From positions 44,907,885 through 44,971,884 of the forward strand of contig CAIIXF020000001.1 of NCBI GenBank assembly GCA_903813345.2: DNA of 64,000 nucleotides. Direction: 5' to 3'. The notes beneath the pieces were generated by a model that was not told the origin of the DNA, searched no databases, and saw only the letters and a program-made list of their open reading frames with translations. Both the position numbers and the translations under genes were made by a program. This stretch comes from Owenia fusiformis. Its lineage: Eukaryota; Annelida; Polychaeta; Sabellida; Oweniidae. Positions 13,901-61,382 of this stretch are shown piece by piece; position 1 is the first letter of the stretch, and each line of letters opens with the position of its first letter.

Positions 13901-16900
13901 TTGAACTTCAGCAAATGAAAGACATGTCTAATTATGTAGTATTCACATGCTTTTATTAGATTATTTTCGTATGTAAATACAAATGACGTGGAGTCTGATC
14001 GCAATGCCGGATTAAGATTTGAGCATTCTAAGTAACATGGATATCCTGTAATGAGTTCTATGGAACCGGAAGGTTTTATTACGTAAATCAATCTAGATAC
14101 TAACAGAGGTAGTCGTTGCGATACTATAACTTGCTGAATCCGTGCTAGTGTTATCCATATCATCTATATCAGAGTCGTGGAGAATTGAATTAGAAGTCAC
14201 TTAAATCATCTAGCAATTATGTCTGTAGTTAGACGCATCGCTTTTCATTCGATCCGCTACGTACACTTAACGTGATCCTCTTAGAGTGTTCCCAATCATT
14301 TATAATTAAATAAGTATCAACAATAAACTAATCAAGGCAAATATAAGCTTCAGTAACCACCTCGTTTCATTTTATTTGCCGACACAATCTAGCTCTTAGT
14401 TTCTGAATTGATCTCTTTCAACGCTACTTATTAATCTGGCGTATCTAAGTAGAACGTACAAAAGAAAATTGACGGTAAAATTAGTTTTTTTGTTTTCGCT
14501 ATTCATTTAAATTATAATACGGTCAGCGTTGATTTATACCATGAAAGCATGCTTACTACATTTGTACATTTGGACCAAATATTTCTAGATGCAAAATGAA
14601 CAGCACAATGCACAGTTCGTACCCTCCTTTCCAAATGTATGGTAATGGATGGTACATAGCATGCATAAATTAACACTAGGTATCTAAGGAAGAATCAAAA
14701 CTCACCATTTCAATTTCAGGATTTAGCTATTGAATTTATTTTTTGTGATGTAATTTTCTGAAATCTCCAAATTCACATCTTGACAAAAATACTTGTAGCA
14801 TTTTTTAAAGTTCAACTCAGTTTTGTATTCAATAAATAAATACGACAGATACGCGCATTAGTAGTGAAGAGTGAACATTTATATAACAATGACATAGTGA
14901 CATAGTATGATATAGTGACATAGCAACCATGACATAGTTACGCATGGTCTGATTGGTTAAATTTCCCGCTGCAATCTGATTGGTAAAATGATGTCACGTG
15001 ACTCCAGCCCGTTAATGATTAATTAGTGATAACCCGTTGCTGAGCAATTTTATAAGGCTTATATAATACTCATCAGTACAAATACAAAGTTTACATTGTA
15101 GTATTTACTTAAACAACAAATCTATTATTTCACGATCACCTGATAAGATATTCATATACTGGACGTTTGTAAGGATACTATATTTACACCTTTAAAGAAC
15201 AGGCTTAACTACAGGAGATATTTTAAAAAGATTATGGAAATTTTTCATTTGAAACCTCAAGATGTCAGTAAAGTCGGGGGGACCATAGTAAAACCATTAG
15301 AAACTGGCCTTCCAAGAATGTTAAAGTTAGCCGTAGGACCGCATCGTCAACAAACAATTCTCTTCCCAACAGTTGACCATGTATTTATGAAAACGTACGA
15401 TGTGCTTGATGTACAGTCGAAACATGATGGATCACTACAAGTACCATTTGAACCGCAATCATCCGATCCATGTGCTGGAAGGATAACAAGACAGGAATTT
15501 GACTATTTCATAGAATGCTGTCAAGAGAACTGTTGTATATTTTCAAAGGACAACAGAAATTCTTCAAAATATGAACAACAAGCCCTATATACATATGGTT
15601 TAGACCACTGGCAACACTTAGGCAGAGGATATGAATTTACGATTTCCAGCAACTACAAAACGTTAGAAATCGTGTCAAATAGGTTCAATGAAGAGAAGGA
15701 GATTTACGAAGTAAACTGGAGTCTGTGTTTAACATTTCAACAAATACACGACTTATTAGATAATATATGGCTCATCATGGAGCCTTTGACACTGGCCGAG
15801 AAAAACTGCCTAGCTACTTTACATGACGATCATCTGAATCAAATGGGCACATGGTCATGCAACGTTTGCCAATTCATGAACCGCAGGACAGTTTTTGATA
15901 AAGCACTTAATGACCAATAACACTATGCTTGCTGTCATTTTTTGTATCAGACAATAGACATGTTTATTAGAATATTATTTGAATAAACATACATATGTAG
16001 TAACGACAATTGCAATCATCTCCGTTTAAATTCCTAAATCAAACCTTTACACCATGACACCAATAGTAATACCAATACTTGAATTTCCCGCTGCAATCTG
16101 ACTGGTCAAATGATGTCACGTGACTCCAGACATTTACCTACATTTTAACTCAAGATTCTTAACAGTTAGTTAACCATATCGAGTAAATGACTTAGTCAAA
16201 TGAGTAACTTAATTGTGTAAATGAGCTACCCAATTGAATAATGAACAAACTCAATTGAGTGAATGGATACCTCAGTTGAGTAAATTTGTAACTCAATTAA
16301 GCAAATGAGTTAATCTATTGAGTATATAAGTCACTCAAATTAGTAAATGGGTAACTAAATTGAAAAATCGATCAAATGAGTAACACAATAATGTAAATGA
16401 GTAACTCAATAGAGTCAATGAGTAAGACAATTAAGTAAATGAGTAACTCCACTGAGTAAATGAGTAACTCAGTAGAGTAAACGAGTAACTCAATTAAGTA
16501 AACGAGTAACTCAATTGAGTATATAAGAAACTCAGTTGAGTAAATGAGTAACTCAATTGAGTAAATGAGCAACTTAATTGATGTATTGAGTTACTCAATT
16601 AAATGAGTCCATTAGTGACTCAAATAAAAATAAATTGCTTTATGGAATGAGTAGATGGCTAACTGGGATGAGTTAATGAGTAACTCAAATGAGTAATTGA
16701 GTGCTGGATTATCAAATTTGGCTGATGCATTTATTCAATCGAGTGACTCATTTACACAATCGAGTTACTCATTACTCAATCTAGTGACTCATTTACTCAA
16801 TCAAGTTACTCAATTTACTCATCCGAGCAATTCAATTACTCATTCTCTCAATTTTACTCACCAATGACTCAATTATTCAAATGAGTTACCGATTTACTCA

Positions 16901-19900
16901 TTAGAGTTACTCATTTACTCAATTGAGTTACTCATTTTACTCATTCGAGTAAAAATTATAATGGATAACTGGGCTAGAGGATTAACTCAATTGAGTAAAT
17001 GAGTAACTCAATTGAGTGAATGAGTAACTCTAATGAGTAAATTGGTAACTCATTTGAATAAATGAGTCATTGGCGAGTGAAATTTAGTGAATGAGTAATT
17101 GACTTACTCGAATGGGTCAATTAAGTAACTCAATTGAGTAAATGAGTAACTCGATTGAATAAATGAGTAACTCATTTGAATAAATGCGCCATTGGTGAGT
17201 AAATTGAGTGAATGAGTAATTGACCATCTTGCTAATGTCATAGTCATCTAATGTCATCTTAATGCATTTTAAATATCTTATTAGTTTAGTGAACATTTGT
17301 ATCATATGGGAGCAAACAGTTTTTGGGCAAGGGGGGGGGGCCCAAATTATTTGTCTTTTTTTCCGCACAAGCGCGGAAAAAAATTTGGGCCCCCCCCCTT
17401 GCCCAAAAACTGTTTGCTCCCATATGATACAAATGTTCACTAAACTAATAAGATATTTAAAATGCATTAAGATGACATTAGATGACTATGACATTAGCAA
17501 GATGGTCAATTACTCATTCACTCAATTTACTCACCAATGGCGCATTTATTCAAATGAGTTACTCATTTATTCAATCGAGTTACTCATTTACTCAATTGAG
17601 TTACTTAATTGACCCATTCGAGTAAGTCAATTACTCATTCACTAAATTTCACTCGCCAATGACTCATTTATTCAAATGAGTTACCAATTTACTCATTAGA
17701 GTTACTCATTCACTCAATTGAGTTACTCATTTACTCAATTGAGTTAATCCTCTAGCCCAGTTATCCATTATAATTTTTACTCGAATGAGTAAAATGAGTA
17801 ACTCAATTGAGTAAATGAGTAACTCTAATGAGTAAATCGGTAACTCATTTGAATAATTGAGTCATTGGTGAGTAAAATTGAGAGAATGAGTAATTGAATT
17901 GCTCGGATGAGTAAATTGAGTAACTTGATTGAGTAAATGAGTCACTAGATTGAGTAATGAGTAACTCGATTGTGTAAATGAGTCACTCGATTGAATAAAT
18001 GCATCAGCCAAATTTGATAATCCAGCACTCAATTACTCATTTGAGTTACTCATTAACTCATCCCAGTTAGCCATTTACTCATTCCATAAAGCAATTTATT
18101 TTTATTTGAGTCACTAATGGACTCATTTAATTGAGTAACTCAATACATCAATTAAGTTGCTCATTTACTCAATTGAGTTACTCATTTACTCAACTGAGTT
18201 TCTTATATACTCAATTGAGTTACTCGTTTACTTAATTGAGTTACTCGTTTACTCTACTGAGTTACTCATTTACTCAGTGGAGTTACTCATTTACTTAATT
18301 GTCTTACTCATTGACTCTATTGAGTTACTCATTTACATTATTGTGTTACTCATTTGATCGATTTTTCAATTTAGTTACCCATTTACTAATTTGAGTGACT
18401 TATATACTCAATAGATTAACTCATTTGCTTAATTGAGTTACAAATTTACTCAACTGAGGTATCCATTCACTCAATTGAGTTTGTTCATTATTCAATTGGG
18501 TAGCTCATTTACACAATTAAGTTACTCATTTGACTAAGTCATTTACTCGATATGGTTAACTAACTGTTAAGAATCTTGAGTTAAAATGTAGGTAAATGTC
18601 TGGAGTCACGTGACATCATTTGACCAGTCAGATTGCAGCGGGAAATTCAAGTATTGGTATTACTATTGGTGTCATGGTGTAAAGGTTTGATTTAGGAATT
18701 TAAACGGAGATGATTGCAATTGTCGTTATTACATATGTATGTTTATTCAAATAATATTCTAATAAACATGTCTATTGTCTGATACAAAAAATGACAGCAA
18801 GCATAGTGTTATTGGTCATTAAGTGCTTTATCAAAAACTGTCCTGCGGTTCATGAATTGGCAAACGTTGCATGACCATGTGCCCATTTGATTCAGATGAT
18901 CGTCATGTAAAGTAGCTAGGCAGTTTTTCTCGGCCAGTGTCAAAGGCTCCATGATGAGCCATATATTATCTAATAAGTCGTGTATTTGTTGAAATGTTAA
19001 ACACAGACTCCAGTTTACTTCGTAAATCTCCTTCTCTTCATTGAACCTATTTGACACGATTTCTAACGTTTTGTAGTTGCTGGAAATCGTAAATTCATAT
19101 CCTCTGCCTAAGTGTTGCCAGTGGTCTAAACCATATGTATATAGGGCTTGTTGTTCATATTTTGAAGAATTTCTGTTGTCCTTTGAAAATATACAACAGT
19201 TCTCTTGACAGCATTCTATGAAATAGTCAAATTCCTGTCTTGTTATCCTTCCAGCACATGGATCGGATGATTGCGGTTCAAATGGTACTTGTAGTGATCC
19301 ATCATGTTTCGACTGTACATCAAGCACATCGTACGTTTTCATAAATACATGGTCAACTGTTGGGAAGAGAATTGTTTGTTGACGATGCGGTCCTACGGCT
19401 AACTTTAACATTCTTGGAAGGCCAGTTTCTAATGGTTTTACTATGGTCCCCCCGACTTTACTGACATCTTGAGGTTTCAAATGAAAAATTTCCATAATCT
19501 TTTTAAAATATCTCCTGTAGTTAAGCCTGTTCTTTAAAGGTGTAAATATAGTATCCTTACAAACGTCCAGTATATGAATATCTTATCAGGTGATCGTGAA
19601 ATAATAGATTTGTTGTTTAAGTAAATACTACAATGTAAACTTTGTATTTGTACTGATGAGTATTATATAAGCCTTATAAAATTGCTCAGCAACGGGTTAT
19701 CACTAATTAATCATTAACGGGCTGGAGTCACGTGACATCATTTTACCAATCAGATTGCAGCGGGAAATTTAACCAATCAGACCATGCGTAACTATGTCAT
19801 GGTTGCTATGTCACTATATCATACTATGTCACTATGTCATTGTTATATAAATGTTCACTCTTCACTACTCGCATTTATTCATTTGACCTCTAAGTGCTAT

Positions 19901-22900
19901 TTGATGATGTTCAGACCCAGTTCTACGTCTCAAATCTTAAGTAACATCATTATTTGATACGGTTTCATGAAATTGGAAAAAGCTTAAAACTTTGTCAACT
20001 TCTAAATCTCCGATCCTAGTTAATCAACAGAGATTTATTGCTACTTGAGCGAACATATATTCAAACAGCAATAAGTTGCGATATCAACAAAGAAAAACAA
20101 GCATAAAACGCAGATCTCGAAGGAGATACAGTTCTATAACAAACCATGTGCGACATGATAAACTGAAAAATAGTAAAAACACAATCATAATGTATACTTT
20201 GAATCGAAGTCAATTACTAGAATAGCTCGAGTATCAGATGCATATCAAATCTCCTGGATAGACATGTATAGTGAAGCGTTTAATAGTGTCTCTCGACAAT
20301 TGGATGAAACCGGCGCTGATGTAGAAAGAAACAAGGTTTAATTAAAGGGCATCACTGTGTGATGGGTCATTAAATCTGTCTATTGACACCATCCATAACA
20401 CTGAAGTACAAACGTGTCGCAACTACCGCAGTACATGTTTCCTTTAACATGACTATAATCACTTGTTACATGATTTGGTCTTACAAATTACTCTCAGAGG
20501 GACTCATAATCCATGGTTGCGACTGGGCATATATGAATATGATTGACCACCTCTGATCAGCAATTAGTTGATGTCATTCCTACTTGAGTGATTAATATTG
20601 CTCAAAATGTAGTCTACGGTACAACGCGCGGTAACGGTAATGTACAACATAAGGCATTTGAATAATTTGCGTTATACCGTATCTCAGGTTTTACCTGCTC
20701 GTTACCAAATACTACATTCGATTTTTGTGTGGGTTTATCTATGAAATTCACCGTCTATTGTTACAGACATTTACATACAAAAATATTTAGAAACTAGGGT
20801 TTCATGAGTAATATTTTATAGGAGGTGCCTGCAACATTGAATTGAGCAATTTACTACTACAAAATCTTGATTTATTCCAATACATTAAAACGCGTAACAT
20901 CGTTAATATGTATATGCAGGTTGGTTTGGGTCCTTATCGTTCTGGCTGCGATATGTGGATTTAGCTACGTAGTTGTGGTGCGCTGTACCGTCTATTACAG
21001 CTGGGAGAAGACTGTTAACGTAGAGGTCACCTACACAGAAAACCTTACATTCCCAAGTGTGACAATTTGCAATGAAAATGCCTTCAGGTACTAAATATTA
21101 TTTTTTATGATTTCTTAATTCAATAGACTATGTTAGTAAATCATTGGGTATGTCATTTTAAAGTACAGTTTTATTGCAAACATGTTGCTAATTCTGAAAA
21201 ACTTCATAGAATTTTGTTTGGAAACGTTGCATGATTTACTGTATAAGTCTATTAATTATAAACTATTGTTTACTTATCATCTTCGCCAACGTCATCATCA
21301 TATCGTTTGATATTGTTTATTTTATATTGGGTTAATTTTGGTTTCCCAGCGCCGTACCTTGTACATGTTTCTGATGATTATAATATAAAACAAGGCATTT
21401 CATCCAAAATGCCAACACCTGTCATTTGTTACAGACGCTGAACTCCGAACACCAATCGCCACCACAAAAAGAGACTATAGCAATATGTCACCACTTATGG
21501 GTGACATAAATAGCCAACTCGAGACTATGTTATAATTAGACATTTTATCCCAATATTGACTCAAACGTCATGTGCCAAAATCTCGTAGAGACCAAACCAT
21601 TTTTGTGACATTCATTATAAAATCTTCATTTTAAAGGTTACATTGTTTGAATACCCAACGACGTTTGTCAAGCCTTTTTTGGGTAATGAGTTAATCAGTG
21701 TTTTGATATAAAACTCTGCATCAAATAGCTTTATGATATCATACATTACAGCCAAAGAAACACTACATTTACATGTTTCTGAATAAAAGTGTTTAAATTT
21801 TTATAGAGTTTCAGTAGCTGCAAAAATAAATAAAGTAGAGCTTGTTAGAAAACATTTCGGCAATGAGAAACAAAAAGAAAAGGATTCAACAAATGACAAC
21901 AGTAAGTATTGGCTTAGTAAACCATTGATGTAAACGTGACATTTCTATGAACAGGCTAAATTGCAATCAAAATTATCGTGCTATATTTGATGAGAACTCT
22001 GCAGTAGCTTGTGACATTTTCTTCAACGCAAGGCGTCTTACTTGAATACTTGGTTGGGTGATATGAGGTGGGGACAAGAGGCCCCGGGAGCTAAATGTAA
22101 GATTACTTGCTTGTAATGCGTAATTGCGTATGATATGAAACGTTACAATTTTCAGCTACCACATTGGTCAATGTCACAACTTCAGCACCAGTGACTACAA
22201 CTCCTGTTGGAGAGAAGGAACATCATCCCACATCAAAAAACATAACAAGTAACTGACGCCTATTTTAGAATTAATGTTGTATTGAACTGAACTTTTGGAG
22301 AAGAATTAGATATATTATTGTGTTAAAATCTCGGAAGAATGATTTAACGAAATCCTTTCTGGTATAAAGATACCAAATATTGTGTTGTACAATTACACAT
22401 TTTCCAGGTAACGCTACTGTATACCTCAATATGGACAGCCTTAAAAGTAAAACAGAGATAGTTGGCAAGGGAATAATTGGTTTTGCTTTGAGAGATCCCG
22501 AAATTGTGGATGGCATAGTAAACAAGGCACTCTATTTGAATGGACTTGACCAGCATGTAGAGTTTAATAACCAAGCGGTTGACAGCGTATGCCTCAAAGA
22601 ATTGGATGATTGTAAGCTTGGATTAACTTTATCACTTTGGATCAAACTTGGCTTCAAAGAAGCCTCTGGTTCTCAAATTTTACATTATATATCTACTGGA
22701 GGTCACAAAATTGGAAATACAGGTATTGCAATGTACCAACGATATGATAGGCTTGTTGTTTATATACGCACACATAAGAAGGAATGGCATGTTACCACCA
22801 GCGTCGAAAAGAACGTCTGGAACATGGTAGCATTTACATGGTCTAAAGAGCAAGATTTAACGATGTATATAAACGGTTCAAAAGCTGACCATGGCCAGTA

Positions 22901-25900
22901 TTACCCTCTTAAAGCAGTTGAGATCGATGAAGATGCTATGGAGGATGGATTGACGTTAGGTGGACCAAATGACCTTCTCCTGAAAAATGAAATGTTTAGT
23001 ACAGATTTGGGCGAGGCATACATGGATGATTTATACATATGGGATACGTACATGAATGGGAGTGATATAGTCAAAGTGTTTGATGGGTACAAGGGTAAGT
23101 AAGGTTTCAAATAAATATTAACACATCAAAAATTAATTAACTCAAGTTCATTTACTTCAGAGACTTATATAATTTATTTTCAACCTTTCACTGATTATCC
23201 TACTAGCTTTATCAAGAATATTAAAAACATCGAAAATAAATTATATTAGTCTCTGAAGTAAATGGACTTGACTTAATTAATGCATTACCGGAGACATGAA
23301 TTTACACAGAAACATCAAAAATTATTTTATGAAATGCATTATGTCGTTTCTTTATAAAACATAAGAGTGAATCAATTAAAACCAGGACCCACACTTTACT
23401 TCAGGTTTTTTGAAAGAAGATGATGCCAAACCTGAGAATCCAACAGAACCTGAGGAGAGCCAACCCGAGCCAACTGTATTTTACCATATGTCTATGGATT
23501 ATATATGGGGAGGTTCCATTCTTGGTAGAGGAATAGAGGCATCAATGGACTTTGACCCCTGGATTCCACCTCCGATTGTAGAGACAGTTATTGAGAATAA
23601 AACAGACATAGAGATATTTGTCGAACAATGTTTCAATGGAACTGAGCTTAATGTAACAATACAGGTTTTGGGGCATGACGAGAATCAAACTAAATATGTA
23701 GATAATGTGATATCTTGTATTGATGGATCAATTTATCTTGTGAGACACAGGAACAAATCGCGTATAGAATGTATCTTAATTAACCAAACCGTAACGACCA
23801 CAAGTCACATTCCAGTTACCCCTACTGAAGGGAATGACACCACGATGACAACATCTACTCCATTAAATACTACATCGGAGTATATAGCAAACACAACAGA
23901 TTTGAACGATATGTCAAACCTCACGGTATCTACTAACGATACGAGGAACCTAACGAGATTCATGGAAGATATTGAAAATACTCCAGGATTTATGAATAAT
24001 ATGACTAACACAAGTACTGCAATCGTCAGCAATATGACAGATAATTACACAGATTATTTGATGAACACCACGTCTTTTATCAACTCCTCCATTCCAAATG
24101 GTAACATTTCATCCATCAATTCAACTCATAATGAAAGTGACGTCTATGTACCTCTCACTGAAGAGGTTGAAGTATGCAATAATGTGACAATTGAGGAGGA
24201 ATATCATGTCGAAGTTGAATGTGGCGGCAATAGCAGCGAGCTTCTTTGTCCCCGCCCAGTTGTCATAGAGATCGTAGACCCATGCGAAGATTTTGACATT
24301 GAGAGTTCATATGACCCTGGATATGACGGTGTTCTCGGCAAAAGCTTTTATATGAGCAATTTCAGTCAGCGATTAGACTTTGGTTTCAAAAAGGATCGTT
24401 GTTTTGGCAACATACAGATGTGTAATAATGGATTTAGCTATAGGTTTTGGCTGAGGGACGATACCCACCCTTGCAATACTCCAAGGATATTATATACGTC
24501 GCATTATTCACTAAATGATGACAGCAATGTCCCCCCGCAGGGAGTTTTTGTATTTCTTGATCTCAATGAAGTATCGGTGCATGTCATTCAGGATTGGAGA
24601 TACTGGAACACTAGCATAGGGCTTAACCCAGATTCATGGAACCATTTATTCATCACATGGTCTTCAGAACTTGGATTGAACGTGTCAGTAAATATTACGG
24701 GCAAATCGGGCAATCAACACGTCAGCAATATATGCCCTGGTGTCTTGGAATCTTTTCCAGTTAACATTACCAACATAACTGAAGGAGTACGCTTCTATGG
24801 ACCAACAGCTATTGACGAATTCATGTTTTGGGACACCATTGTCAACAAGAAGAGATATGCGGGCACAGGTATGCGACTTTTATTGTTACCCTTTTCGTCA
24901 GTTTCATTTAAATATATTCTACGATACTTTTAAAATGCATGTACGTTTATCTCTTTTAGCGACGGTGCAGTATTTTCTTCCAATGGATGACCAGGTAGAA
25001 GATCAAATATATGGTATTGGGCTGAACGCCACGGTATACAAGGGCGCTCAAACTGCACCAGGAAAGTTGCAAAATAGCCTCTACTTAAATGGTATAAACC
25101 AGTGGGCCAGCCTTGGTAACACCAGTGGAGAGTGTTTGGGTTCACTTGATCTTTGTGAAGATGGATTCACACTAGCATTTTGGATTAAGAAAGGCTACAA
25201 ACACCCAATCGAAAAATATTCGATGTTTTATTTAAGCAGCGGAGCTCAGTCACCTCGAGCTCAAGGCATAACTGTATTTCAACAGTCTGACAAATTGAAC
25301 GTTCACCTAAAAACAAAAAGCCGTCTATATGAGGCCTCAATTGATGCACTCAAGGACGACGAATGGAGCCACATCACTATCACATGGATATTAAGTCACG
25401 GCCTCCGCCTGTATCACAATGGAGATCTAAAACACGAGGATCGAACATGGAAACTACTGAGACCAAGCAATTATACAAAAGATGTTGATTTTGTGATTGG
25501 AAGACCAAATGATGAGCATAAACACTTCGGAGATGCATTTATTGATGATCTGAATTTTTGGAACATACAACAAGATGAAACTTTCATCAAGGATTTAACG
25601 AAATCAAAAGGTAAGAATTGTTGCACTTTGTAAGTAAGTAATACCATCATAGATCTTTCCTATATTCAAATAAGTCGTGTCCAGTTTGAGAAAACATCAA
25701 TGAAACCGTCCTAGGCCTGGATCTTTAAATCTCTGTTTTATAGATATCAAACACATCTACGTATCGATGGATAGAGTTGAGGATGGAATGTTGGTAGGTG
25801 TGGGTATGGAAGGAAAGATAGTAGAAAAAAAGAAAAACACCATGGCCACAGCCACAGTTAAGGGTATATTAGGTATGGCTATAGAGTTCAAAGGCGGAAG

Positions 25901-31900: not shown

Positions 31901-34900
31901 TCCAGTGTTAATCTCTGATAATTCACCTGACAATTGTGTTTTAGGTTCTTCTTCACAATCAGTCGGAAGTGCCAATGGTTACTGATATCGGCTTTGCCGT
32001 TGCACCCGGGATGCATTCCCTTGTTGCCGTAAAGAGAACCGAGGTATTAGGGCCGAGGCAATGCATTATTATATTATAATTTATCAGTTCCCATTTATTG
32101 TTTCTCAAAAGTAATTACAATGGTTCAATTATTCATTTTGTAAATATTGTCGATTTGTAATGTTGTTATATTTAAACTTTATATTCAAAATAAAATGATG
32201 AGAAGTAAAGACACAAAAATGGTACGTCTCTCATAATAAGGCAGACAAAAAGTAGAAAATGTAGAAATCATCAAAGAAATTGAATATTTTAGATACAATT
32301 TGGCACAATCAATTCACTATTTCATTTCAGTTCTTAAGTCTGTCTAAGCCATGGGGGACATGTAGTGAAAAAGAACTGGATTATTTCGATGACTATACTG
32401 TATCAAAGTGTATGATTGATTGCCAGACGAGATATGTTGTGGCGATATGTCACTGTAGGGCAGCGTATATGCCCCAGAAACACCATAGTAAGCCTTGTAT
32501 GTATCTTTACAAAAGCAGACCAACACTGGCCTGTGATTCGAATAACCTTTAGATGTAGTTAATTAATGAAATGACACATTTACTAAAGATTATCCCTTAT
32601 CACGTTAGCACCTTATCCCTGAAATGGATATGATTCTGCTATTTAGTTATATACATTTATAAAGTTTATAACATTATTCATATCAGTTTCATACAATAAT
32701 AATATTACAGATGAGCCGAGGATATGCAGTTTGGAAGAATACTTTGACTGTGTACTGCCTTCCTTACAGAATAGCACCAAGTTCATGGAAGTTAATTGTT
32801 CTTGCCCACAGCCATGTAAGAAAGTAGTATATGAGCCCCGACTCTCTTATGGTGCAATATCGAGCTTGAGTGTTAATAAATTACTTGATGAGCGCAACAT
32901 CAAGACCACTGAACTAAGAAATAAATATCACGAGGTACTAGATATTGTCCAACATGTAGATGAAGAAATTTGGGAAACTGACCAGCACATGTTTGAAAAT
33001 ATCATTAATGATTACAATCAGCTGGTTGATTACACTATTCATTTCTATGATAAGGATGAAGACAACAATCAACCGGTGAATGAAATTGTGTATAACGTCC
33101 AATCTGTTATAAAAACCTATGTCAGGGATTTAAATCTGACGTTTGCAAGACACGAGGAGTTCTTGAGCATCTACAGTAGGAGCTACAAAACTACAAATGA
33201 CACCCTCTATGAAGTTGCACATGACTTCCTCGAGTTAACCAGGTTGATATTTGAATCAGATGGACCCAAATTAGTAGAGTCGCTTCCTGGACTTACGCCG
33301 ACAGATTTAAGTGGAACTATCCGTAAGAATGTCCAACAGGCTGCCAGGAAAGGCAAAGACGTTGTCGATAAACTGTTGGCGTTTAGAGAAGCACTTGAGT
33401 CAGGGAGGCCACTAGATGAACAACTTCCTGATTATGAGTTATCAATGCTGCCAGGAACCATATATACATCTTATTCCAGCGTTGGCGGAACGGTAGATGA
33501 TTTCTTAGCAGATATGTGGCAGCTGTTGGATTTCTATTTTCCAAACATTGATGAAAAACTAAATCGTATTACCTCAACCGATTCGGTTATTCCAGTAGAG
33601 CTTACTGAGATATTTAACAGTTTCAACGCTGATGTGCTGGACAAGAGCATCAGCAAATTACTCCAAAGCTTAAATGACTTTTACAATAAGATTCATGCCA
33701 TGAAAATGTGGTATGAAAACTCACTAGAGGAGATCAAGCATGAAAATCAAACATTTTATGAACGGTTTGTTTTGAATAGAAACACTCTGTATGATCTAGC
33801 AATATACACAAAAAATATTACTCATCGCAAAGAAACACTTGGGAAATTGTACGGATCATATACTAAATCTGAAATCACCAAACTTAAATTAGCTGGTGGC
33901 TATTTTTCTGAATCTAGTATAAATGATGATATACTGTACATTGAAAACTTTGTGTCTTCATTTAAGACACGTGTTTTGGAGGAACTTTTACGAGAAATCA
34001 CGAACATCAATGAGCATCTCACATTGAAGTACCAAGCAATATTAACAAAGCTTGAGGAATTACAGGTATATTATGACAAAAAATTCGACTACTCACCAAA
34101 AATATTAAACATATGGAAAACTGTGAATGCATTGGGCCTTATTGATGAGAAAAATATGAACGACAGTGTTTTGTCGGAAAAAATGGCGGAGCATTTTCGT
34201 ACAAGTGTGTCTGCAGATATAGCACGGTTCGACACTGGTTTGCAGGAAAATGAACGTAACTTGATAGAGAGTCTTAACTTTGCCAAAGATAGAATGAAGC
34301 TTTATGTTGCTGCAAGTAAGATGGACGAGAACTTCGTAACGTAAGCTATATAATTGTTTTATGAGCAATATAAAATTGTAATTGAAAATAACCAAGAGAT
34401 TTAATTCTTCAACAGATAGTTATATATTGATCAAACAAAACCGGTCCTCTGATAAAATTAACTCATATTAAGTTTTCAGGACCTGAGAATTGGTATCCAA
34501 GTTACAAGTTCTCTTGAAATCAATGACTTTGATTACACAAAATATGCCTACGTTATTCATTACTATGATAAACGTGTGATCACAATGTCTACTGATCATT
34601 ATAAAATTCATTCTGGAAGGTATCTGTTACATGACTTCCTAAAATGAAGTTTGAATGCATATATCTGAGATATCATATATTGCAGGACAAATTTCTTATA
34701 CATGGACGTTTACTTTGCTGAATTGAGTTACCAAAAAGTTGAACAGAAAGAGGCGTTCACTTGGCAAATGCTCATCAGTAAGTTTGCTTCATTAATTAGC
34801 TCAAAGCATGACCTTGTTGCTTAGTTGACAAAACTAGAGTTAAAATAACTGAACATGTCTAGAGCTCTGTTCCTAAAAATTAATTTTTGATTCTGAAACT

Positions 34901-40736: not shown

Positions 40737-41326
40737 TCACTGTAGCATAAAATCACTGACATCTGTGTTTTTCCTTCGTTGTCGGGGCATTGCAAGAATA
40801 ATACTTTCCCAGAAGAATTTATTATTTCTCTCAAGATAGGTTCTTGTAGATATATACGTATTCATGGTTGGATGTTTTGCTAACTCATCTTTGTCCAAAA
40901 TATCTATCGGATCATAGAGCACCAAGATGACAGGATCTCGTTCACCCATAACCCAATCATCATATGACCTTACAAATTCATATATAGTGTATCCACTATG
41001 TAAAAACTCATTCGAAAGAACAATAATTGTCCTCTTGCTGTTGTCTATGGCATTATTTATGTTGTCTATGATAGGTTCTCCTCCTCTGAAATCACGTTCG
41101 TGTAAACAGAGCTTATACCCAGCTTCCTCAAGTTTTATCAGCAATTCATCACGCACCCAATCACCATTGAGCCCACTGTATGACAATAATGCGTCATATT
41201 GTTTATTACTGTTGTCTATCCTGTCGAATCGCCAACCAAACCAGATAAAGAACTTAAGTTTTATATGTGATTCAAATCGTTTAAAAAAGTAATACAGTTG
41301 TAAGGATGAGAGATACAACAACAAGT
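40737..41326 (-). CDS. TLR fragment: TIR domain
   Basis: Cytosolic TIR domain that recruits MyD88-type adaptors. Box 1 is YDALLSYSG; box 2 is LCLHERDFRGGEPI, with a Gly where Toll proteins usually have Pro; box 3 is the FW of NNKFFWESI. It follows the TM segment in another frame: the poly-T run just after VLLF must lose one base for the helix to continue into FKRFESHIKLK. Domain residues are otherwise well kept, suggesting recent decay or a sequencing indel. Confidence 0.85.
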
Positions 41327-41730
41327 ACTCCTATAATTGCATGGAAGTACGAACTCTGCTGGAATGGTATTGGCGGCTCTGGAATGCATGTAAGGTTCGA
41401 ATCACTGATTTCAAATAAAGGAACCAGCTCGGTCAAATTGCCTCGCATGCAGTGAATGTCTACCAAATTGGGTATGATTGCTTGGTGAGAGTTTAACCAT
41501 CTCTTTAATGGTAAAGCCCTACAGCAGTCCCATGGGTTATTAGACAGCAAAACAGACCATTTTGATTCCCATTGGTCTTGAACATTTAGAGGGCCACCTC
41601 CAAGTACCTTAAGTAACGGGTTTCCATTAATCAACATCAATCCCAGTGATTCAAAAATAGTAAGGTTTACACTCTGTAGCTGGTTGCCTTCAAGATCAAG
41701 GAAAGACAGCCAACTGAGACGAGAAAATAC
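41289..41730 (-). CDS. TLR fragment: last LRRs, LRRCT and TM helix
   Basis: It begins at the target duplication of the LTR-like insertion with FSRLSWLSFLDLEGNQL, then the LRR carboxy cap NNPWDCCRALPLKRWL, CMRGN and CIPEP, and the membrane helix IIGVLVVVSLILTTVLLF. Joined across the insertion, the upstream fragment ends IKAIQDN and this one starts VFSRLSW in the same frame. Confidence 0.8.
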
Positions 41731-42177
41731 TGTAACGGAATTTAAAATGTAAAATTTTTGATTTTTAATTAAGTGCTGTGTTTTTGTATATAAGGCAATT
41801 ATTACACTTGGAAAGTAATTTCCCATTGAGATTATTAAGATTTATAAATGTAGTATCATTTGCAGCACTTAGGTTGTACTTACAGAGGTGAAATAGTTCA
41901 CATGTTTTATTTATTTTATCACGATTTTGTTTATGTTGATCGGGAAGTCTTATCTGGCAGTCTAATTTGTAGTTGATCGGTAGTCTAACATGACACCTTT
42001 ATTATTTTACTTCCTGCTTTTGATTCGATTGAATCGAAGGAAAATTAGACTAGATAGTGGTTAATTACTGTTGTATTTCTTGAGTCAATATTATAATCTT
42101 GCTGTATGATCAATATTGAAGCGAAATATGGCGTAAGTAAGCTGTAATTCACAGTTGAAATCTTGTACGAAAATCGA

Positions 42178-42226
42178 TGACGTCATCGGGCCTATATAAC
42201 TATCTCGCTGTTGAAGGCTCGTCAGT
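42178..42226 (+). promoter_or_regulatory. CRE, TATA and initiator inside the LTR-like insertion
   Basis: A palindromic CRE (TGACGTCA, 42178-42185) precedes TATATAA (42193-42199). TCAGT at 42222-42226 puts its A 31 bp from the first T of the TATA box. This is ideal core-promoter geometry and would mark the U3/R boundary of an LTR. Confidence 0.65.
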
Positions 42227-42707
42227 GCGATGCCAGATGTTGTCGAGGAAGGACCTCTAAAGCGGAATTTCGGGAAACAGCTAAAATCTTCTAAGTTTTA
42301 TAGAACTTAGTCGATTTTGTGGAGTTGAAGCTATACGTTTGCAGTATACACATGAAGATAGAAGCTGTACCTTAGAAGAATACATCTGATGAGCCAAGCT
42401 ATACGTTTGCAGTATACAAGGGCAGATTGAGGAAACTAAGTGTGAGGAACTTAGTTTATTTTGGAGATTGGAATTTTTTGGAAACTTTGATGTAGCTAAG
42501 TGAGAGGAACTTAGTTTATTTATCGCACTGGAAGTAAGGGAGATCTACAAGACTGGACAAAACTTCGACAGGGTGAAGCTATCCCCAGCGTAAAGCATTA
42601 GACGTATTGTCCAGCCTTCATAGACTGAGAGGAAATGCTGACATAACTTGTGTTTGAGAAACAAGCTATTTTGATCATCAAGGAACTTAGACGATTTACA
42701 ACATTAT

Positions 42708-42915
42708 TGGACTTAGTCAGTATTTGGTGAAACATTATTTTGGACTTTGTTATTTTTGGAGATAGAAATATTTAACTTAGAATATTTTAACATCAGTATA
42801 ACTTAGTATGAAATTAACTTAGTCAATATTTGGTGAAATATTATTTTGGACTTTGTTGTTTTTGGAAAGAGAAATATTGAACTTAGAATATTTTAATATC
42901 AGTATCACTTAACAT
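42708..42915. repeat. Two-unit direct repeat inside the LTR-like insertion
   Basis: Two adjacent units of about 100 bp share 'cttagtca.tatttggtga' and 'ttattttggactttgtt', followed by 'cttagaatattttaa'. They precede the larger tandem array. Confidence 0.65.
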
Positions 42916-43124
42916 TAAATGAACTTAGTCATTTTAGAGGTCAAATATTTTCACATGTTATATTTTTGCATATGTCGTTGTGTGCATGCTATATTTGTAG
43001 GTAGCCTTATTATTTAATTGTGAAGGAAGTAGGCTAGATGGACTTAGCAGTTGATGCCGTGTTTTAGATGTCCTTGGACTTGGTAGTTTGAAGATTGTGA
43101 TATTTTGACTTATACATCTACAGA

Positions 43125-43998
43125 GAGACGTTCCAGGACTTAGCAGTTTATTCAACGAGATATTTTGACTTTGATGATTTTTGGTCATTGAAGTTAGAAT
43201 ATACATCTCACAGAGAGGACGTTCCAGGACTTAGCAGATTATCAAGCGAGATATTTTGACTTTGATGATTTTGTGTCATTGAAGTTAGAATATACATCTA
43301 CAGAGAGGAGGATCCAGGAGATAGTCGATTGCAGAGCAATAGTTTGACTTAGATTATTTCACATAATCAAAGTTGAATTATAATACAACACAGTGAAGAG
43401 GATCCAGGAGATAGCCGTTTACAGAGCAATAGTTTGACTTAGATTATTTCACATAATCAAAGTTGAATTATACTACAACTCAGAGAGAAGGATCCAGGAG
43501 ATAACCATTTACAGAGTTGATAGTTTGACTTATATTATTTCACATAATCAAAGTTGAATTATACTACAACACATTGAGGAGGATCCAGGACTTAGGAGTT
43601 TACACAACTGATAGTTTGACTTAGATTATTTCACATAATCAAAGTTGAACTATACTACAACACAGAGAGGAGGATCCAGGAGATAGCCATTTACAGAGCC
43701 AATAGTTTGACTTGGATTATTTCACATAATCAAAGTTGAACTATACTACAACACAGAGAGGAGGATCCAGGAGATAGCCATTTACCGAGCCGATAGTTGA
43801 CTTGATGATTTCACATTATCAAAGCTGAATTATACTACAATACAGTGAAGAGGATCCAGGAGATAGCCGTTTACTGAGCAATAGTTGACAGGATCCAGGA
43901 GATAGACATTTGCAGAGCCGCTGGTTGACTTAGATGATTTCATATCATCAAACTTGAATCATACTACACTACATTGAAGAGGATCCAGGAGATTACTA
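43125..43998. repeat. Tandem array of about 90-bp units (GGATCCAGGAGATAG)
   Basis: About nine to ten units, each with 'aggatccaggagatagcc', 'tagtttgactta', 'tttcacataatcaaag' and 'tatactacaacacag'. The first units, from about 43125, are more diverged ('acgttccaggacttagcag'). The array lies within the LTR-like insertion, downstream of its promoter. Confidence 0.8.
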
Positions 43999-44434
43999 TT
44001 TCAGGTTCAAGTTACAAGTACAATACAAGACTTACAAGGGTTACAACATATATGGACTTTTAATATTGGAGATACAACAGTGTATATAGTGATCATTAAC
44101 TTTAGTTATATGGACTCTGGATATTGTGTTCTTAGTGATTATTATTAGCTTATATGGACTTTTGAGTTGTGAGTTTTGAGAAAGATAATAACATCGTAGC
44201 ATTTTAACCTTCATACTTGACATTTAATGTACATCTTTATTTGGGCTTATAAACGCCACAATATACTGTTTTATATTTTATATTTAATTGTATATGTCTG
44301 TTTAATTCTTTAGGGACAATCGCACATTTAACGTGTGCCGTGTAACTCACCAAGTAAACACCGTTTACTAAACAGTGGGCCTATTATTAGTCACGCTACC
44401 ACGTATATCCACAAAAATAGGCCAAACTGTTACA

Positions 44435-45210
44435 ATACATTATCTTGGATTGCTTTGATGGAGTTGTTAGCAATTTTTAGTTCATTCAACATCATCAAGT
44501 TTTTAAACGGTTCACCGTTTAGTTGTACTATGCGATTATTGTTTAAGTTCAATGTTTTTAACTGAACAAAACCATTGAAAACGTCATTCCCAATGAGTGC
44601 TGTAATTTGACAGCTAGACAAGTCCATAATCTGCAATATAGGACAACTAGTATTATGAAATGTTGCCGAATCCAATTGATTGATGTTATTATGAGATACA
44701 TCTAGTACGTTAGTTGTATTCGGAATTTCAAAGGGTATGTAATCTAGTCCTTTGTTGGAACATTTTATATGTATCCAAACGTACGGCTCTTTTACTGTAT
44801 CGGCAAAGCACTCACAATTTTCCGGGCACTTCATTTTTATTTGACAAAGATATAGACGAGCTGGCACATCTTTCATCCTCTTTGCCGTCCCATCACTCAG
44901 AACTGGAACTGTGCATAGAGAATAATTAAGTGCGTTTCTTGCCCATCTCATGAAACAGTCACATATAAACGGATTTTCTGTACCAACATGATAGATAATA
45001 TTTCCTGGATGATCCATAAACGTTTGTTCTTTTATTGTGTGTATTCTGTTAGCCGAAATATCAAGAATTCGCAACTGTGTCGATAGAAAAAATTGGTTTT
45101 CTGTAATATAGGTGATACTATTATGACTTATATTTACGCTAGCAAGCTGAGATGGAGTAGGCGTCAATACCCGCGGAAATGATCCAATTGAAGTTATATT
45201 GTTTACTGTA
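44435..45210 (-). CDS. TLR fragment: internal cysteine cluster and following LRRs
   Basis: From ITSIGSFPRVLTPTPSQL it reads LRRs (NISHNSITYI, LDISANRIHTI), then the internal cap (FICDCFMRWA...C) and amino cap (CPENCECFADTV), then LDVSHNNINQLD, LNLNNNRIVQL and LKIANNSIKAI. The internal cap pair is what defines the multiple-cysteine-cluster Toll type. It is out of frame with the upstream fragment by one base. Confidence 0.85.
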
Positions 45211-46503
45211 TAGGTCTAACTGTTTAAGTGATGGAATAAGATGCATATGGTCAAATATATTCCATGCGTCATTTAGTTGGTTATTTGCGACATTTAAACC
45301 CCTTAAATTTATGTTTGATTTCAGCGAAACATTGAACTCTTTCAGCTGATTGTAACTTAAAATGAGGAATTGTAGGGTTCTACAACCATCAATTAAATTC
45401 AGAGAAAGATTGACAAGATTATTATGGGAAAGGTCTATGTCACGTAAATTATAGAATCCTGTGAACAAATCTGCTGGTAGTGCACTTATGTTGTTCCCTT
45501 TTAGATCTATCCGTCCTAATGTATGACGCAAATGTCCAAATGTACCATATGGTATAGTGTTTATGTGGTTCGACTGAAGTGTAATGATATGAAGAGATTT
45601 AGAGTGCTTGAATGTGTCTTTTCCAATTGTTCGAATCATGTTATTGTTTAGATATATCTCTTCCAACGAACTTAAGCCATCAAACATTGTTCCATCTAAA
45701 CTAAGGATATGATTGTGTCCTAATGACAAAGCTTTTAAAAGTGGTAGCTTTTTGAATATTCCAGGAGGAACCTTGTTGATATTGTTGTTGTCCAGGAAAA
45801 GATATTCCATTTTTTCAAGACCTTCAAATGCCAGTGCACCAAGTTCTACGATTCTATTGTTCCTTACGAATAAAAGGATCAGCTTACCTAGATGATGAAA
45901 TGTTAAGTTCCCCAGATATGTTAAGTTATTCCGAGTTATTCCTAAAAGCTGTAGATTTGGCATGAAAAAATCACCGGGATGAATAATCGAAATATTATTA
46001 TTATTGAGCAAAAGAGTACCCGTGTCATTAGAATAAAACATATTAGCTGGAAATGATTGAATAACATTGTCCTGCAAAAACAGGAGTTTGAGTCGAGTGT
46101 TGCTTATACTTCCGTGTATGTGTTCGATTTGATTCATCTGGAGGTCTAAAAATGTCAAGTTTACACAATTCGCGAGCAAATCGAATGCAAAATGAGTAAT
46201 GTTGTTCGAACTCAGTGTAAGATTATATAATTTAGGCGTACTTGAAAATATGTCGACTGGTAATTCTTTTATCCAATTCTGTCCAATGTCTAAATGTTCG
46301 ATATTTGTTAACCCTTCGAAGGCATTCACTTCCAAAATATGTATGGAGCAATTATAAAGACTAAGGTTGGTCAGCATGTTCATTTCAGAAAAGGACTTAT
46401 TTGGGATACTAACCAATTTGTTATTTGAGAGATCCAGATTTTGAAGATTACTTAGACATGTCGTTTTGGATTGGTTATGTAAAACATTATTGGAGAGGTT
46501 AAG
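45196..46503 (-). CDS. TLR fragment: main LRR solenoid
   Basis: It starts at acceptor 'cgttag' with LNLSNNVLHNQ and holds about seventeen consecutive LRRs of 22-25 residues, such as LDLSNNKLVSIPNKSF and LFLDNNNINKVPPGIF. The repeat register of 22 residues is kept across the intron from exon 1, which supports this join. Confidence 0.85.
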
Positions 46504-46994
46504 CTAACGATGTTTTTCACAACGTAACCGTGAACGCAAAGTACAAAAAATAACAAAGGAATGTATCGAGCGCTCATAGTTATATGCGCGCTTAGTCTAC
46601 TTCAGATACTCTTTCAGCTTCATAGTTTCGGGTTTAGAACGGGAGATTTTGAAATTTGACGTTGGGTCAACGGGAGCCATTTTACTCGTGTCTATTGAAC
46701 ACTATGCTGTCAATTTTGATTTCGATGCACAGTTGAATTCTTGCTGAACACGATGATGTATGTCATGCATGATTTAGCGCCAAAAATCTTACGAAACGAG
46801 CTCGTTTAAAATATGTATTAGAAAACCAGCTATAAAACCGCATCAATGACATACTATAGAATCATTACACGCTATGGTGTAGTCTAAACAAACACTGGAT
46901 TTGAACGGCTATTTATATGAGAAGGCTACATGAATTTGTATATGGTCGAGTGATACGTACAGGTTCAGTTTCGATTACATATGCAAAGCTTAAC

Positions 46995-47702
46995 CTCTCA
47001 ATTGTTAGGATGGAACGCAGCAGTTGGGAATCCTGTCAGGTTTAAGTTATCCAGTTTCAATGAGTTCAATTTGGGCATATTGCAGAATAGTCCATCAGGA
47101 AGGAACTTTATCGGGTTTCTTGTTAAGACTAACTCTTCCAATGCAATCAAATCATCAAACGCATGCTGCTCAACTTCAGTAATATTATTGTTCGCTAGAT
47201 CCAACCACTTTAAGTGTATGAGACCCTCTAAGAATGGTGTAGTGATGTTCTTCAAGAAGCATTCAATTCTTGAGTAACGAATATCCTTATACTGTCCTAA
47301 AGTAACAGCATTAGGAATCGAAGGTTTCAATCCATTGTATTCTCTACATTTAACATGTAAAACGGTCGTGTTTCTTTGAACCAACGGATCGTCCCAATCA
47401 AATTTAATGTCAAGCTTATAGATCGTGCCCACGATGGTGTTGCTCTTCACATCCAATACAGTTGAATAATGACCAACTGTTAACCATTTCGAACTGTCTA
47501 TATCAATGACAACCTGACCCTGATTGTTTTCCAAAGGCCATTTGTACTTATATTCTGGAATGTCTTGAGATGTTGCTCTGTACATAATCCAATTCTCAGT
47601 CGGCGGTCCATCTATGACAATTTGACGTGTCTTCGAAATAGTGCTCATACATTTAATTAAAAACACAAACGCAAAGCAAATTAAATTTTGAACGTTAATC
47701 AT
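46995..47702 (-). CDS. TLR fragment: exon 1, signal peptide and first LRRs
   Basis: The preferred start is the Met at 47702, because MINVQNLICFAFVFLIKC makes a clear signal peptide; an upstream Met at 47726 adds eight residues. About 120 residues without LRR character (TENWIMYR, WLTVGHYST...) precede LRRs such as LDLANNNITEV. The frame meets TGA two codons before donor GAG|GTTAAG. Without that stop, the 22-residue LRR spacing continues exactly into exon 2. Confidence 0.75.
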
Positions 47703-47726
47703 GGTGCCTTCGAACCAAACGTGCAT

Positions 47727-51175: not shown

Positions 51176-54100
51176 ATGACAATGGTGTTTGATATATCAA
51201 AAGCACTTACATTTGTGCTTCTAGCCTTAACAACACACTGTGGGGCATGTTTTAAAACTGAATTTAGTACGGTGAGTAATGTAATGGAATAAAGTTAATG
51301 AATCTATGTGCAATGTATTTACGTACTGTATATATGGTAGATTATTCGTGTTCTTTAAAATGTCAGATATTCCATATATGTGTATATACTCCGTGTACAT
51401 GTATGTGACTTTTCATGTTGTGACTTTTCATGTATTATCGTTACAGGAGAAAACGTATGTATTTGCCGCGTCTGGTAACAGGAGGCCCCTGAACTATGTG
51501 TAAGTAGTAGAATGAATTCGAATATTTATTATCCTCCAATTGAAATATCTTTAATAGACTCTCTGTAATATAGCTAAGATTACCCGATGCATCAAGCCTA
51601 CCTTAAGTTTTAAAAATAATTTAAATATATTCAAATGGTAAATGTAAATCCAGAGTAACATCTGCCAGAGTAACATGGATGCATCCAGTGTACTTCGACC
51701 TACATGTATATAGTTTATATATATCACTTTTATAGTTTTTTTAATAGTTTATTTATTGATTTATAGTGGTCAGTCTTACAATTCAAAAAATATAAAAAAA
51801 TTAATAAGAATTTTACCCAGCCCACTTTCAGGAAATACGAAATTAATACACATTAATACATTAATAAATTTAACAATCTGATTATAGTAGTAACTGGTCT
51901 ATTTCAGTGATGAAAATGGTAATCTAAAGGGGTTTGATTTGGATATTGCTAATAGAGGTACATGTATATTTTGTTTAAAATATGCAGAGCAACTTTTCCA
52001 AACATACGAAAGAGCATGCATGCAGATATTTTACTTATTCTTCCTCATAGAAATAATGCGAAGACCACATTAAACTTTTTTGCTGAAGTCAACGACCAAA
52101 CATGCACAGTTGCTTACGTTTCACTAACTTAATTATGATGATAAGATTTCTTCCAAAATGTTTTTTATTTGAGAGTTTTTATATCAGTGTTCCTCCATTC
52201 CCATTTAGTATGTAGTGTTGCCGGGAAGAAGTGCACATTTGCAAAACTGCCACTTGGATGCGTCACCAATTCTGCAGGGGGGAAATTCGTACCAGGAAAA
52301 GGTAATTGTTAAGGATTTTTCACCAGTTATTAATTAGTTCTGGAGAAATCGTCATATTCAGTGTGTTCCGTCTAGAAATTCCCAAATCATTTATCAATTG
52401 GTTAAGCGAGTAGTCGAGTACTCTGACATCAGTTGTCTATTCTTTAAGCGTTAGTCACTGGAGAGGCAGATGGTTGCCTCAGCACAACAATCACAGCAGA
52501 AAGGGAGCTGGTGTTTGACTTCACTCGAGCTTATTACAAGACCACCGCTAGATTCCATGTAGCACCTGGTAATCCGAGACACTTTTCTCCTGAGGAGATT
52601 CAAGGCAAAAAGATCAGTGAGTACATGAGGTTTAATAGGTCTCACATTGATATGTTTCTTTCATCTTGTTTACTTTCAATCGAATCATTGGCTTGGGCCT
52701 AGGATGAAGAAATTTCTTTAGGGCCATATGATAATTTTCTTCATAATAATGGCCAGCAGGGCTATTCAAAAAGGGATAACAAAACCAAATGATAAAAGTA
52801 AATCTATTTACGATATCCAACCAATGCAGTTATATAATTATGGTCAATTCACTGTATGTGTTATTAACTTATTATTCATATCAAAATGACCTACCAATGA
52901 TGATTTTCAGCATTTTTAAATGGCACATATACGAACATGGATTGTCTAAAGAGGTTGGGTCTCAATGGTGCAGTTCCCGTGGTAGCCAATGGATTGAGGG
53001 ATGCCTTGGCGAATGTCCTGGAGAATAGGGTGAGATAGAGAGAATACCCTGTGATATGTAACCGGTATATTCTTGCAATTGGTGACCACAGAGTTGACGA
53101 AACTAGCTTCAGAGTGCTGAAAAAATATAGCATTGGAAAAATAAAATGTTTTGTTCAATCTTTTACAGGTCGACGCTCTATTTGCTCCGAGACCTGTTAT
53201 ACCTGGCGTTGAGAGGGTTCCAGGGGAATATAACTGTGCCAAAGGTTCAGGGGTGATGGTCCTTAAGGGTAATACTTTACCAGAGTGGTGGAACCGAGCC
53301 TTTCAGAGAGTGGTTGAAAGTGGAGACTACAGGAGGATATGCGATGCTTCTCCCGCGAGACACGGAGGTAAGTACGAGGGGTGATCAATAAGTAATGGAC
53401 ACTTTTTTACACAGATACTTTTTATTGACCAATCCCTTTGATTTTCCTACCAGTGATACATCATTCAATTTTCTATCAATTCTGAAGATTTGAAGACAAA
53501 ATATATAATACATGTTGATATATCCTTATTTCCGTGAAGGAGGTACAGGTACCCCGGGACCGACATTTACGTCACTTATTCAGTTTTTAGCCAGTTTGGT
53601 AAATTTGAGTTAGATTTGAACTTTTTATATGCAACAAGTGTTGTATTGTTTGAAATATTTTTCTAACTGGTAACACATAAACAGAAAGTATTGTAATGTC
53701 AGATAGTTTGTAAGGAAGGGGTTTGCATGTCAATTTGAGAAAGCATTGTAGAAGAAAGGGGTGGTGAGAGAAGGAAACACCCTACTCCATATGGACAATG
53801 CACCTGCCCACAGATCTCAAAATGTTCAGAAAACAATATCCCTGAACTTCAAAATTGAGCCCTTGGCCGATGCACTATATTGTCCACATCTGCTCACGTG
53901 TGACTTGTTTATTTCTATACTACTTATTTCTATAGAGAAAGGACGCAGGTTTATTAACATTGATTAAATAAGACCATCCGTGCAACTGCATCTTGCTACC
54001 ATGTCAGAGAATGGATTCAGCCTTGTCTCACAATCTTGAGTTAAGAGGATGAGGAATTGTGTACATGTAGCACTTGATGGAACCTATCTAGAGGGCTCTG

Positions 54101-58529: not shown

Positions 58530-59326
58530 GCTATGATTGACTACACTTTTTATTTAATTCTCATTAATAAATTGCTATAAAATAAATAATTATAAAATAA
58601 CATCTATTTTAGTTTATATTCATATAATAAAAGCTGGACGGAGGATATATCATGAGGATATATCTCTTGTATTTGTCACTTTTGTCACGTTCAATAAATG
58701 ACAGAGACATACATACGTAGATTGGCATGTTAAGATTTTACAGTGATGCTGGTGATAGAATCAGCTAAATGTTCTCAAATATCGCATTGATCAATATCCT
58801 TCTCTAATCAACTTGAAAGGAAAAAATGGATTGATTTCAGATGCATTCAAACGTCCATAGAAAAAGGCCATCATGAGAAGTCACGGCCTTCTCTCATCAT
58901 CATAGATTGGCATAGTCAGGATCTAAAAATTTGGCAAGGGAAATGTGAAATTTCGATTCAAACTAAAAGCATCATTAGATTTCATTTTCACGGGTATGGG
59001 TATGTAGCACTTGAAAGTATCAAGCGAAGGTAATGGCCGTCACCTTCGCATCAAAGGTGGCGGACAGAAAGTGTCGATTTCTATATTTTTAGTTTTTCAT
59101 CGAATTAAACTATATAAAATACTATACTAAATGTATATATATAGTTGGCGTTATGCTTTGATATTTGAGCTAAATATGACTTACATTTCCAGTTACCTTC
59201 CCTTAAGCGGTTGAAGATATCGTTGAACTGTTGCGCCCACGCATGATATATGAACAAATTATCATACTCCATATAGTTCCAATGTCATATAGAGTGTAGA
59301 TAATTTTAATGAGAATATGTTTCTCT
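58530..59326. other. Intergenic stretch
   Basis: After the poly(A) signal of the W/Y-rich gene I see no gene or clear element until the inverted-repeat element at 59327. Confidence 0.5.
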
Positions 59327-61306: not shown

Positions 61307-61382
61307 ATTTTATATTATTCATATTCAGGTTGTTGTATAGATGTCACTAGGTTGTAAAAGTGATCTCCAACTATTTGGAATG

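Follow-up and report, generated by a model that had tools for sequence, protein, structure and literature searches.

Intact vertebrate Mavericks (Polintons) are, according to passages of a survey of 134 copies, 12.7–24.6 kb long and flanked by 6-bp target site duplications (TSDs); (AGT)2//(ACT)2 is their commonest end motif, and repeats of this type at the ends are credited with enabling the jumping-back step of protein-primed replication (PMC8097293). Most of these copies also carry accessory open reading frames (ORFs) in two regions that flank the core genes (PMC8097293). Here we describe a palindromic element of 5,010 bp, at positions 14860–19869 of a 64,000-nt stretch ("the window") of Owenia fusiformis contig CAIIXF020000001.1, that resembles these Mavericks in its (AGT)2//(ACT)2 ends, its 6-bp TSD and an inward-reading gene near the end; it also has long inverted repeats, although at ~2,500 bp they exceed those of vertebrate Mavericks, and it is only 5 kb long (PMC8097293). 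It also differs from them in consisting entirely of inverted repeat and in having no recognised core gene.

Symmetric palindromes with one genome end at both termini, as in this element, are known from adenovirus recombinants of the SYREC type. Those recombinants contain cell DNA, unlike the element, and we know of no integrated forms with a 6-bp TSD. Snapback (5'-SBG/3'-SBG) genomes, a major category of defective particles of adeno-associated virus (AAV), similarly have one genome end folded back together with a promoter and gene region, but they belong to a parvovirus without an AGT-repeat end and are found in packaged particles rather than as a chromosomal insertion (abstract of PMC8235507). 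Mavirus-type virophages and Polinton-like viruses share integration and terminal inverted repeats with the element, and TSDs of 5–6 bp are described for mavirus and, in some cases, Polinton-like viruses (PMC8547959, PMC12220804); endogenous mavirus-like elements, in contrast, mostly have TSDs of 3–5 bp (PMC8547959), and these viruses have protist hosts and encode capsid proteins. The two papers gave no hit for the term AGT (PMC8547959, PMC12220804).

Two further systems share features of architecture with the element. Tm1 foldback transposons have inverted arms rich in repeats, but their TSDs are mostly 8–10 bp, their arms are less similar to each other and their transposases are of another kind (passages of PMC3169594). 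Foldback inversions in yeast are hairpin-centred inverted duplications, with stems down to 4 bp and a hotspot of 15 bp; unlike the element, they are non-mobile chromosomal rearrangements, and short loops (<15 nt) occur mainly in mre11 and sae2 mutants (medians of 4 and 3 nt, respectively, vs. 36 nt with normal MRE11 and SAE2) (passages of PMC7467729). General background on foldback priming at breaks and on adintoviruses can be found in PMC10622511 and PMC11071296, respectively.

RESULTS

The element is an inverted duplication that begins with AGTAGT, ends with ACTACT and is flanked at both edges by an exact CGCATT direct repeat (Table 1); the first 200 bp of the left arm begin AGTAGTGAAGAGTG. 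The first-pass annotation of the window had reported the same direct repeat and the same ends, both of which we confirmed, and had pointed to a Polinton-like signature from the 6-bp duplication and AG/CT ends. The resemblance is in fact stronger than was claimed, as the termini carry in full one of the two common Maverick motifs, (AGT)2//(ACT)2 and (AG)3//(CT)3, in addition to the 6-bp TSD. TSD length and end motif, neither of which depends on the palindrome, both agree with Mavericks. With the boundary set by the palindrome, base composition gives a chance of 4.0e-4 for an exact 6-bp TSD, 5.6e-4 for an AGTAGT or AGAGAG end and 2.3e-7 for the TSD together with either motif. Because other TSD lengths would also have caught attention, the effective joint chance is some-fold higher, though still small. 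The 600-nt flanks to the left and right of the element showed no similarity to each other, and a blastn search found no second copy of the arm within the window (its four matches, at E 0.31, were either exact over 15 nt or 91% identical over 22 nt). Since the palindrome lies within a single pair of TSDs, its entry as one unit is the simplest explanation, and one integration event accounts most simply for both ends; integration as one, already palindromic, unit is therefore well supported.

Global alignment about the true centre paired the arms with identity at 2,495 of 2,507 columns. The differences comprise two substitutions, both transitions (G/A at 16000 and at 16654), a 1-nt gap corresponding to one G (a run of 10 vs. 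9 G) and one 9-nt gap near the centre, beside T runs. Arms of 2,505 bp, without mismatch in the stretches compared and meeting at 17364/17365, had been proposed in the annotation; neither the lengths and junction nor the absence of differences held up, the centre being the hairpin loop at 17367–17372. An inverted-repeat search alone delimited arms of 2,493 nt (14860–17352 and 17377–19869) and scored them as 100% complementary. The 9-nt asymmetry could stem from slippage during or after copying, and the near identity of the arms points to either a recent insertion or gene conversion between the arms, which look the same at this locus.

The inverted duplication is centred on a small hairpin of 11 perfectly paired bp with a 6-nt loop, the configuration expected of snap-back copying. 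A scan of the window for perfectly paired stems of 11 bp enclosing loops of 3–14 nt gave one further site outside the element. The 151 nt around the centre gave a folding z of –19.8 relative to shuffled sequences, which is expected for any palindrome.

From the end inward, each arm consists of (AGT)2, four copies of TGACATAG, a 58-nt block, TATATAA, an ORF of 228 amino acids (aa), AATAAA and another 58-nt block; about 1 kb of 21-nt tandem repeats follows. The motifs within the 58-nt block look to us like E2F, CCAAT and E-box/CLEAR sites, and an E2F-like site would suit S-phase expression of the 228-aa gene. The palindrome GTCACGTGAC occurs in the window solely at its four positions in the element, and of the seven occurrences of the looser motif TTTSSCGC, three lie outside the element. 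Behind the second 58-nt block there is no long non-repeat ORF. Nested within the 21-nt arrays are two inverted copies of a 166-nt segment, 89% identical (16772–16937 and 16997–17162), hinting that each arm may hold the trace of an earlier, older inverted duplication of a similar kind. Scanning the window for Rfam families and tRNA genes gave no matches.

That each arm carries one small gene, as the annotation stated, is borne out by an intact 228-aa ORF in each. Both copies are intact because the differences between the arms all fall outside the ORF, and the two genes are convergent, pointing at each other. In 2,000 dinucleotide shuffles of positions 15000–16200, the longest ORF was always shorter than 228 aa (mean 60, largest 180 aa). 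The whole protein had no Pfam match at E ≤ 10 and no NCBIfam match; it matched one PHROG family of unknown function (E 0.047) and, among PDB sequences, only a stretch of Nup153 at chance level (E 0.97), and a 71-aa piece had no match among PDB sequences. When four pieces of the protein were compared with Pfam, one gave two sub-threshold matches, to a RanBP-type zinc ribbon (E 0.0057, 16.3 bits vs. a cut-off of 27) and to the Vps36 NZF domain (E 0.02, 14.7 bits vs. a cut-off of 27). We rejected a zinc finger, as these matches cover a half-finger, WSCNVCQFMN, and no second Cys pair follows downstream in the ORF. A likeness of residues ~130–185 to the PC4 single-stranded-DNA-binding domain, seen by eye, was also dropped, the domain being absent from the Pfam output. 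A single-sequence AlphaFold2 model had a mean predicted local distance difference test (pLDDT) score of 33. In a tblastn search against phages, the protein produced 12 records at chance level (E 5 for the best 10 of 12). Searches of viral and prokaryote contigs used a pattern method that detects close relatives only: in viral contigs, the protein pattern had no match, two protein pieces matched 19 and 6 stretches with no relative among them, and three arm patterns had no exact match, while in prokaryote contigs 23 stretches matched the pattern, none of them a relative.

The other ORFs overlapping the element (ATG, GTG or TTG starts, at least 50 aa, unspliced) are repeat-derived, span the centre or cross the right edge (19784–19957), and five of them yielded a single Pfam match, at E 2.6. 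The annotation's remark that the element has no integrase, polymerase or capsid gene thus agrees with the ORFs scanned against Pfam and NCBIfam.

Table 1. Coordinates of the parts of the palindromic element within the window
Feature	Position	Strand	Basis or remark
Left TSD, CGCATT	14854–14859		sequence read directly
End motif (AGT)2	14860–14865	+	sequence; motif named in passages of PMC8097293
Left arm, 2,507 nt	14860–17366	+	global alignment about true centre; repeat search
Four subterminal copies of TGACATAG, at 14890, 14898, 14916 and 14930	14890–14937	+	mirror at 19792–19839 by arm symmetry
Promoter-like 58-nt block, copy 1, with TTTCCCGC, ATTGG and the 10-nt palindrome GTCACGTGAC	14957–15014	+	repeat search, motif scan
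TATATAA, TATA-like, one of four TATATAA per arm	15060–15066	+	mirror at 19663–19669
ORF of 228 aa, reading towards the centre, frame open from 15147	15234–15920	+	ORF list
AATAAA, polyadenylation-like signal	15982–15987	+	mirror at 18742–18747
Promoter-like 58-nt block, copy 2, 90% identical to copy 1, ACTGG replacing ATTGG	16079–16136	+	repeat search
Tandem arrays of 21-nt repeats, orientation switching	16198–17186	+	repeat searches
Central hairpin, perfect 11-bp stem TTTTTTTCCGC/GCGGAAAAAAA, 6-nt loop ACAAGC (17367–17372)	17356–17383		folding, alignment
Right arm, 2,497 nt, reverse complement of left arm	17373–19869	–	global alignment about true centre
Mirror of the 21-nt arrays	17543–18531	–	repeat searches
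Mirror of 58-nt block copy 2	18593–18650	–	repeat search
Second ORF of 228 aa, identical protein, reading towards the centre	18809–19495	–	ORF list
Mirror of 58-nt block copy 1	19715–19772	–	repeat search
End motif (ACT)2	19864–19869	+	sequence
Right TSD, CGCATT	19870–19875		sequence read directly

The window holds three further inverted-repeat structures. One, at 53373–54463, has 208-nt arms (94%) and ends TACGAGGGGTGATCAATAAG and apparently lies in a TA site; it looks like a mariner-type element. A foldback-like element at 59326–61307 has arms of ~810 nt (89%, gapped) separated by ~360 nt, with ends near ACCCTACTA/TAGTAGGGT, and it did not match the arm of the palindrome. The third (63289–63915) has arms of ~190 nt (79%) and ends AAAAAAGGCGCAT. 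On the minus strand, positions 40740–47726 include a TIR-domain ORF (40740–41324) and a leucine-rich repeat (LRR) ORF (45142–46416), both tested, along with more LRR-looking ORFs, in what looks like the layout of a Toll-like receptor gene; tandem repeats with periods of 91–129 nt (42711–43993) lie between the TIR-domain and LRR ORFs. Two plus-strand ORFs about 8 kb apart, 23410–24933 and 32731–34344, had sub-threshold matches to Laminin_G_3 (E 1.1e-5) and the amiloride-sensitive sodium channel family (E 1.4e-4), respectively. TIR-domain, LRR, sodium-channel and laminin-G ORFs among the eight scanned suggest, from their predicted domains, an invertebrate animal host.

DISCUSSION

As its ends match those of Polintons/Mavericks, the element is probably a stripped-down Polinton; because no core gene was recognised in it, it is not an intact Maverick and can only be a satellite or a derivative that is non-autonomous. 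The annotation had suggested a new foldback class or a parasite of Polinton-like machinery, and either may apply. We lean, on balance, towards a non-autonomous Polinton/Maverick-type element that arose by fold-back copying of one end of its parent and was then integrated. Of the parts of this proposal, integration by Polinton-type machinery is very likely, and a snap-back origin is probable. It counts in its favor that the gene of each arm is complete, with a promoter-like block and a poly(A)-like signal, and faces inward, and an accessory gene outside the core may be seen as fitting the Maverick layout. The central hairpin, moreover, is similar to those at which yeast foldback inversions arise (PMC7467729), and AAV offers a parallel in its snapback genomes (PMC8235507).

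Protein-primed strand displacement exposes long single strands that are suited to such folding. A Polinton-type parent with the 228-aa gene in its end region would have been copied in this manner by its polymerase, and a displaced or broken strand could have folded at TTTTTTTCCGC-ACAAGC-GCGGAAAAAAA and served as the primer for a complement of itself that extended to the terminus. Replication of the resulting hairpin molecule would yield a duplex palindrome with the same origin and terminal-protein end at both termini, which might be able to replicate with a helper's polymerase. The helper's retroviral-type integrase would then have inserted this molecule into the chromosome by its two identical ends, with a stagger of 6 bp. 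In effect, the element would resemble a protein-primed virus whose defective, snap-back genome later became integrated. It is possible that the parent was instead a mavirus or Polinton-like virus of the wider group, as mavirus and some Polinton-like viruses give TSDs of 5–6 bp (PMC8547959, PMC12220804).

The ends and TSD would also be explained if a Polinton with terminal inverted repeats of ~2.5 kb had lost its core genes by recombination or internal deletion, leaving its two gene-bearing repeats joined. Non-autonomous DNA transposons ordinarily arise by internal deletion, and the gene, the promoter-like blocks and the repeats could all belong to a long terminal inverted repeat. However, arms of unequal length around a unique spacer would be expected after a deletion, whereas here the hairpin is perfect and the arms agree in length to within 10 nt, and terminal inverted repeats of vertebrate Mavericks reach only 1,447 bp (PMC8097293). 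We favor fold-back copying because the only spacer is a 6-nt loop on an 11-bp stem between near-symmetric arms, and we regard internal deletion as unlikely. Rather more improbable is a foldback element that derives from a different superfamily of DNA transposons through expansion of its terminal inverted repeats, the 6-bp TSD and AGT ends being coincidental. The tandem repeats in the long arms do resemble Foldback terminal inverted repeats, and foldback-like families are said to stem from several superfamilies through growth of such terminal repeats (PMC3169594). Against this stand the joint chance of about 2e-7 for such a TSD with a Maverick motif and the similarity of the arms, with two substitutions here vs. 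an average identity of 93% between paired Tm1 repeats (PMC3169594). We rejected the Foldback/Mutator group of Tm1 type, in which 45 of 53 elements have TSDs of 8–10 bp rather than 6 bp (PMC3169594), and also Ginger1 and Ginger2, whose TGTNR ends and 4–5 bp TSDs (passages of PMC2836005) differ from the AGTAG ends and 6-bp TSD seen here; the comparison with published ends and TSDs covered Mutator/Foldback and Ginger.

The near identity of the arms, and the fact that a single copy was seen in a sequence assembly considered alone, might also suggest a local inverted duplication or a folded-back read, with no mobile element involved. Neither would be expected to produce an exact 6-bp direct repeat at the outer edges or to stop at AGTAGT, the 600-nt flanks are mutually dissimilar, and the two transitions between the arms argue against a mere assembly copy. 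We rejected an assembly fold-back or local inversion, which leaves the TSD and the Maverick end motif unexplained, and consider this explanation very improbable.

Several observations weigh against a Polinton derivative formed by fold-back copying. None of the core Polinton genes (protein-primed PolB, retroviral-type integrase, ATPase, protease and capsid) was recognised among the unspliced ORFs of the element, and outside the element eight ORFs, which represent part of the window, were scanned. Searches of Pfam, NCBIfam, PHROG and PDB did not make the 228-aa protein recognisable as a Polinton accessory protein, and the pattern method, which finds close relatives only, revealed no relatives in viral contigs. 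The inverted repeats, at ~2,500 bp, make up the whole element and exceed the 46–1,447 bp reported for terminal inverted repeats of vertebrate Mavericks; the survey of end motifs likewise concerns vertebrates, while the host here looks invertebrate (PMC8097293). Because short loops in yeast arise mainly in mre11 and sae2 mutants, a 6-nt loop is not one that normal chromosomal repair would favor (PMC7467729), and the central hairpin could postdate the palindrome. With a single copy seen, the verdict rests on one locus. Among the matches listed from titles and abstract openings in the open-licence literature, there was no palindromic or snap-back Polinton, which is weak evidence of absence.

A bolder extension of the fold-back proposal, which we think doubtful, is that such palindromes form a standing class of Polinton satellites: snap-back genomes with a replication and integration end at both termini, propagated by a helper and producing hairpin RNA against a helper gene. 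As the two genes are convergent, transcription through the centre would yield a long hairpin RNA, which might silence the corresponding gene of the helper and so act as a natural RNA-interference brake on the parent, while the doubled gene might give the satellite a dose advantage. Mu killer in maize offers a comparison for silencing by hairpin RNA.

To our knowledge, protein priming in Polintons has been inferred from their genes and end repeats. If the fold-back proposal is correct, a snap-back palindrome that keeps the exact (AGT)2 end and was integrated with the 6-bp signature would preserve a physical trace of extrachromosomal strand-displacement replication. It would also suggest that replication and integration need no more in cis than two copies of one end, and it would extend defective, satellite-like genomes to Polintons.

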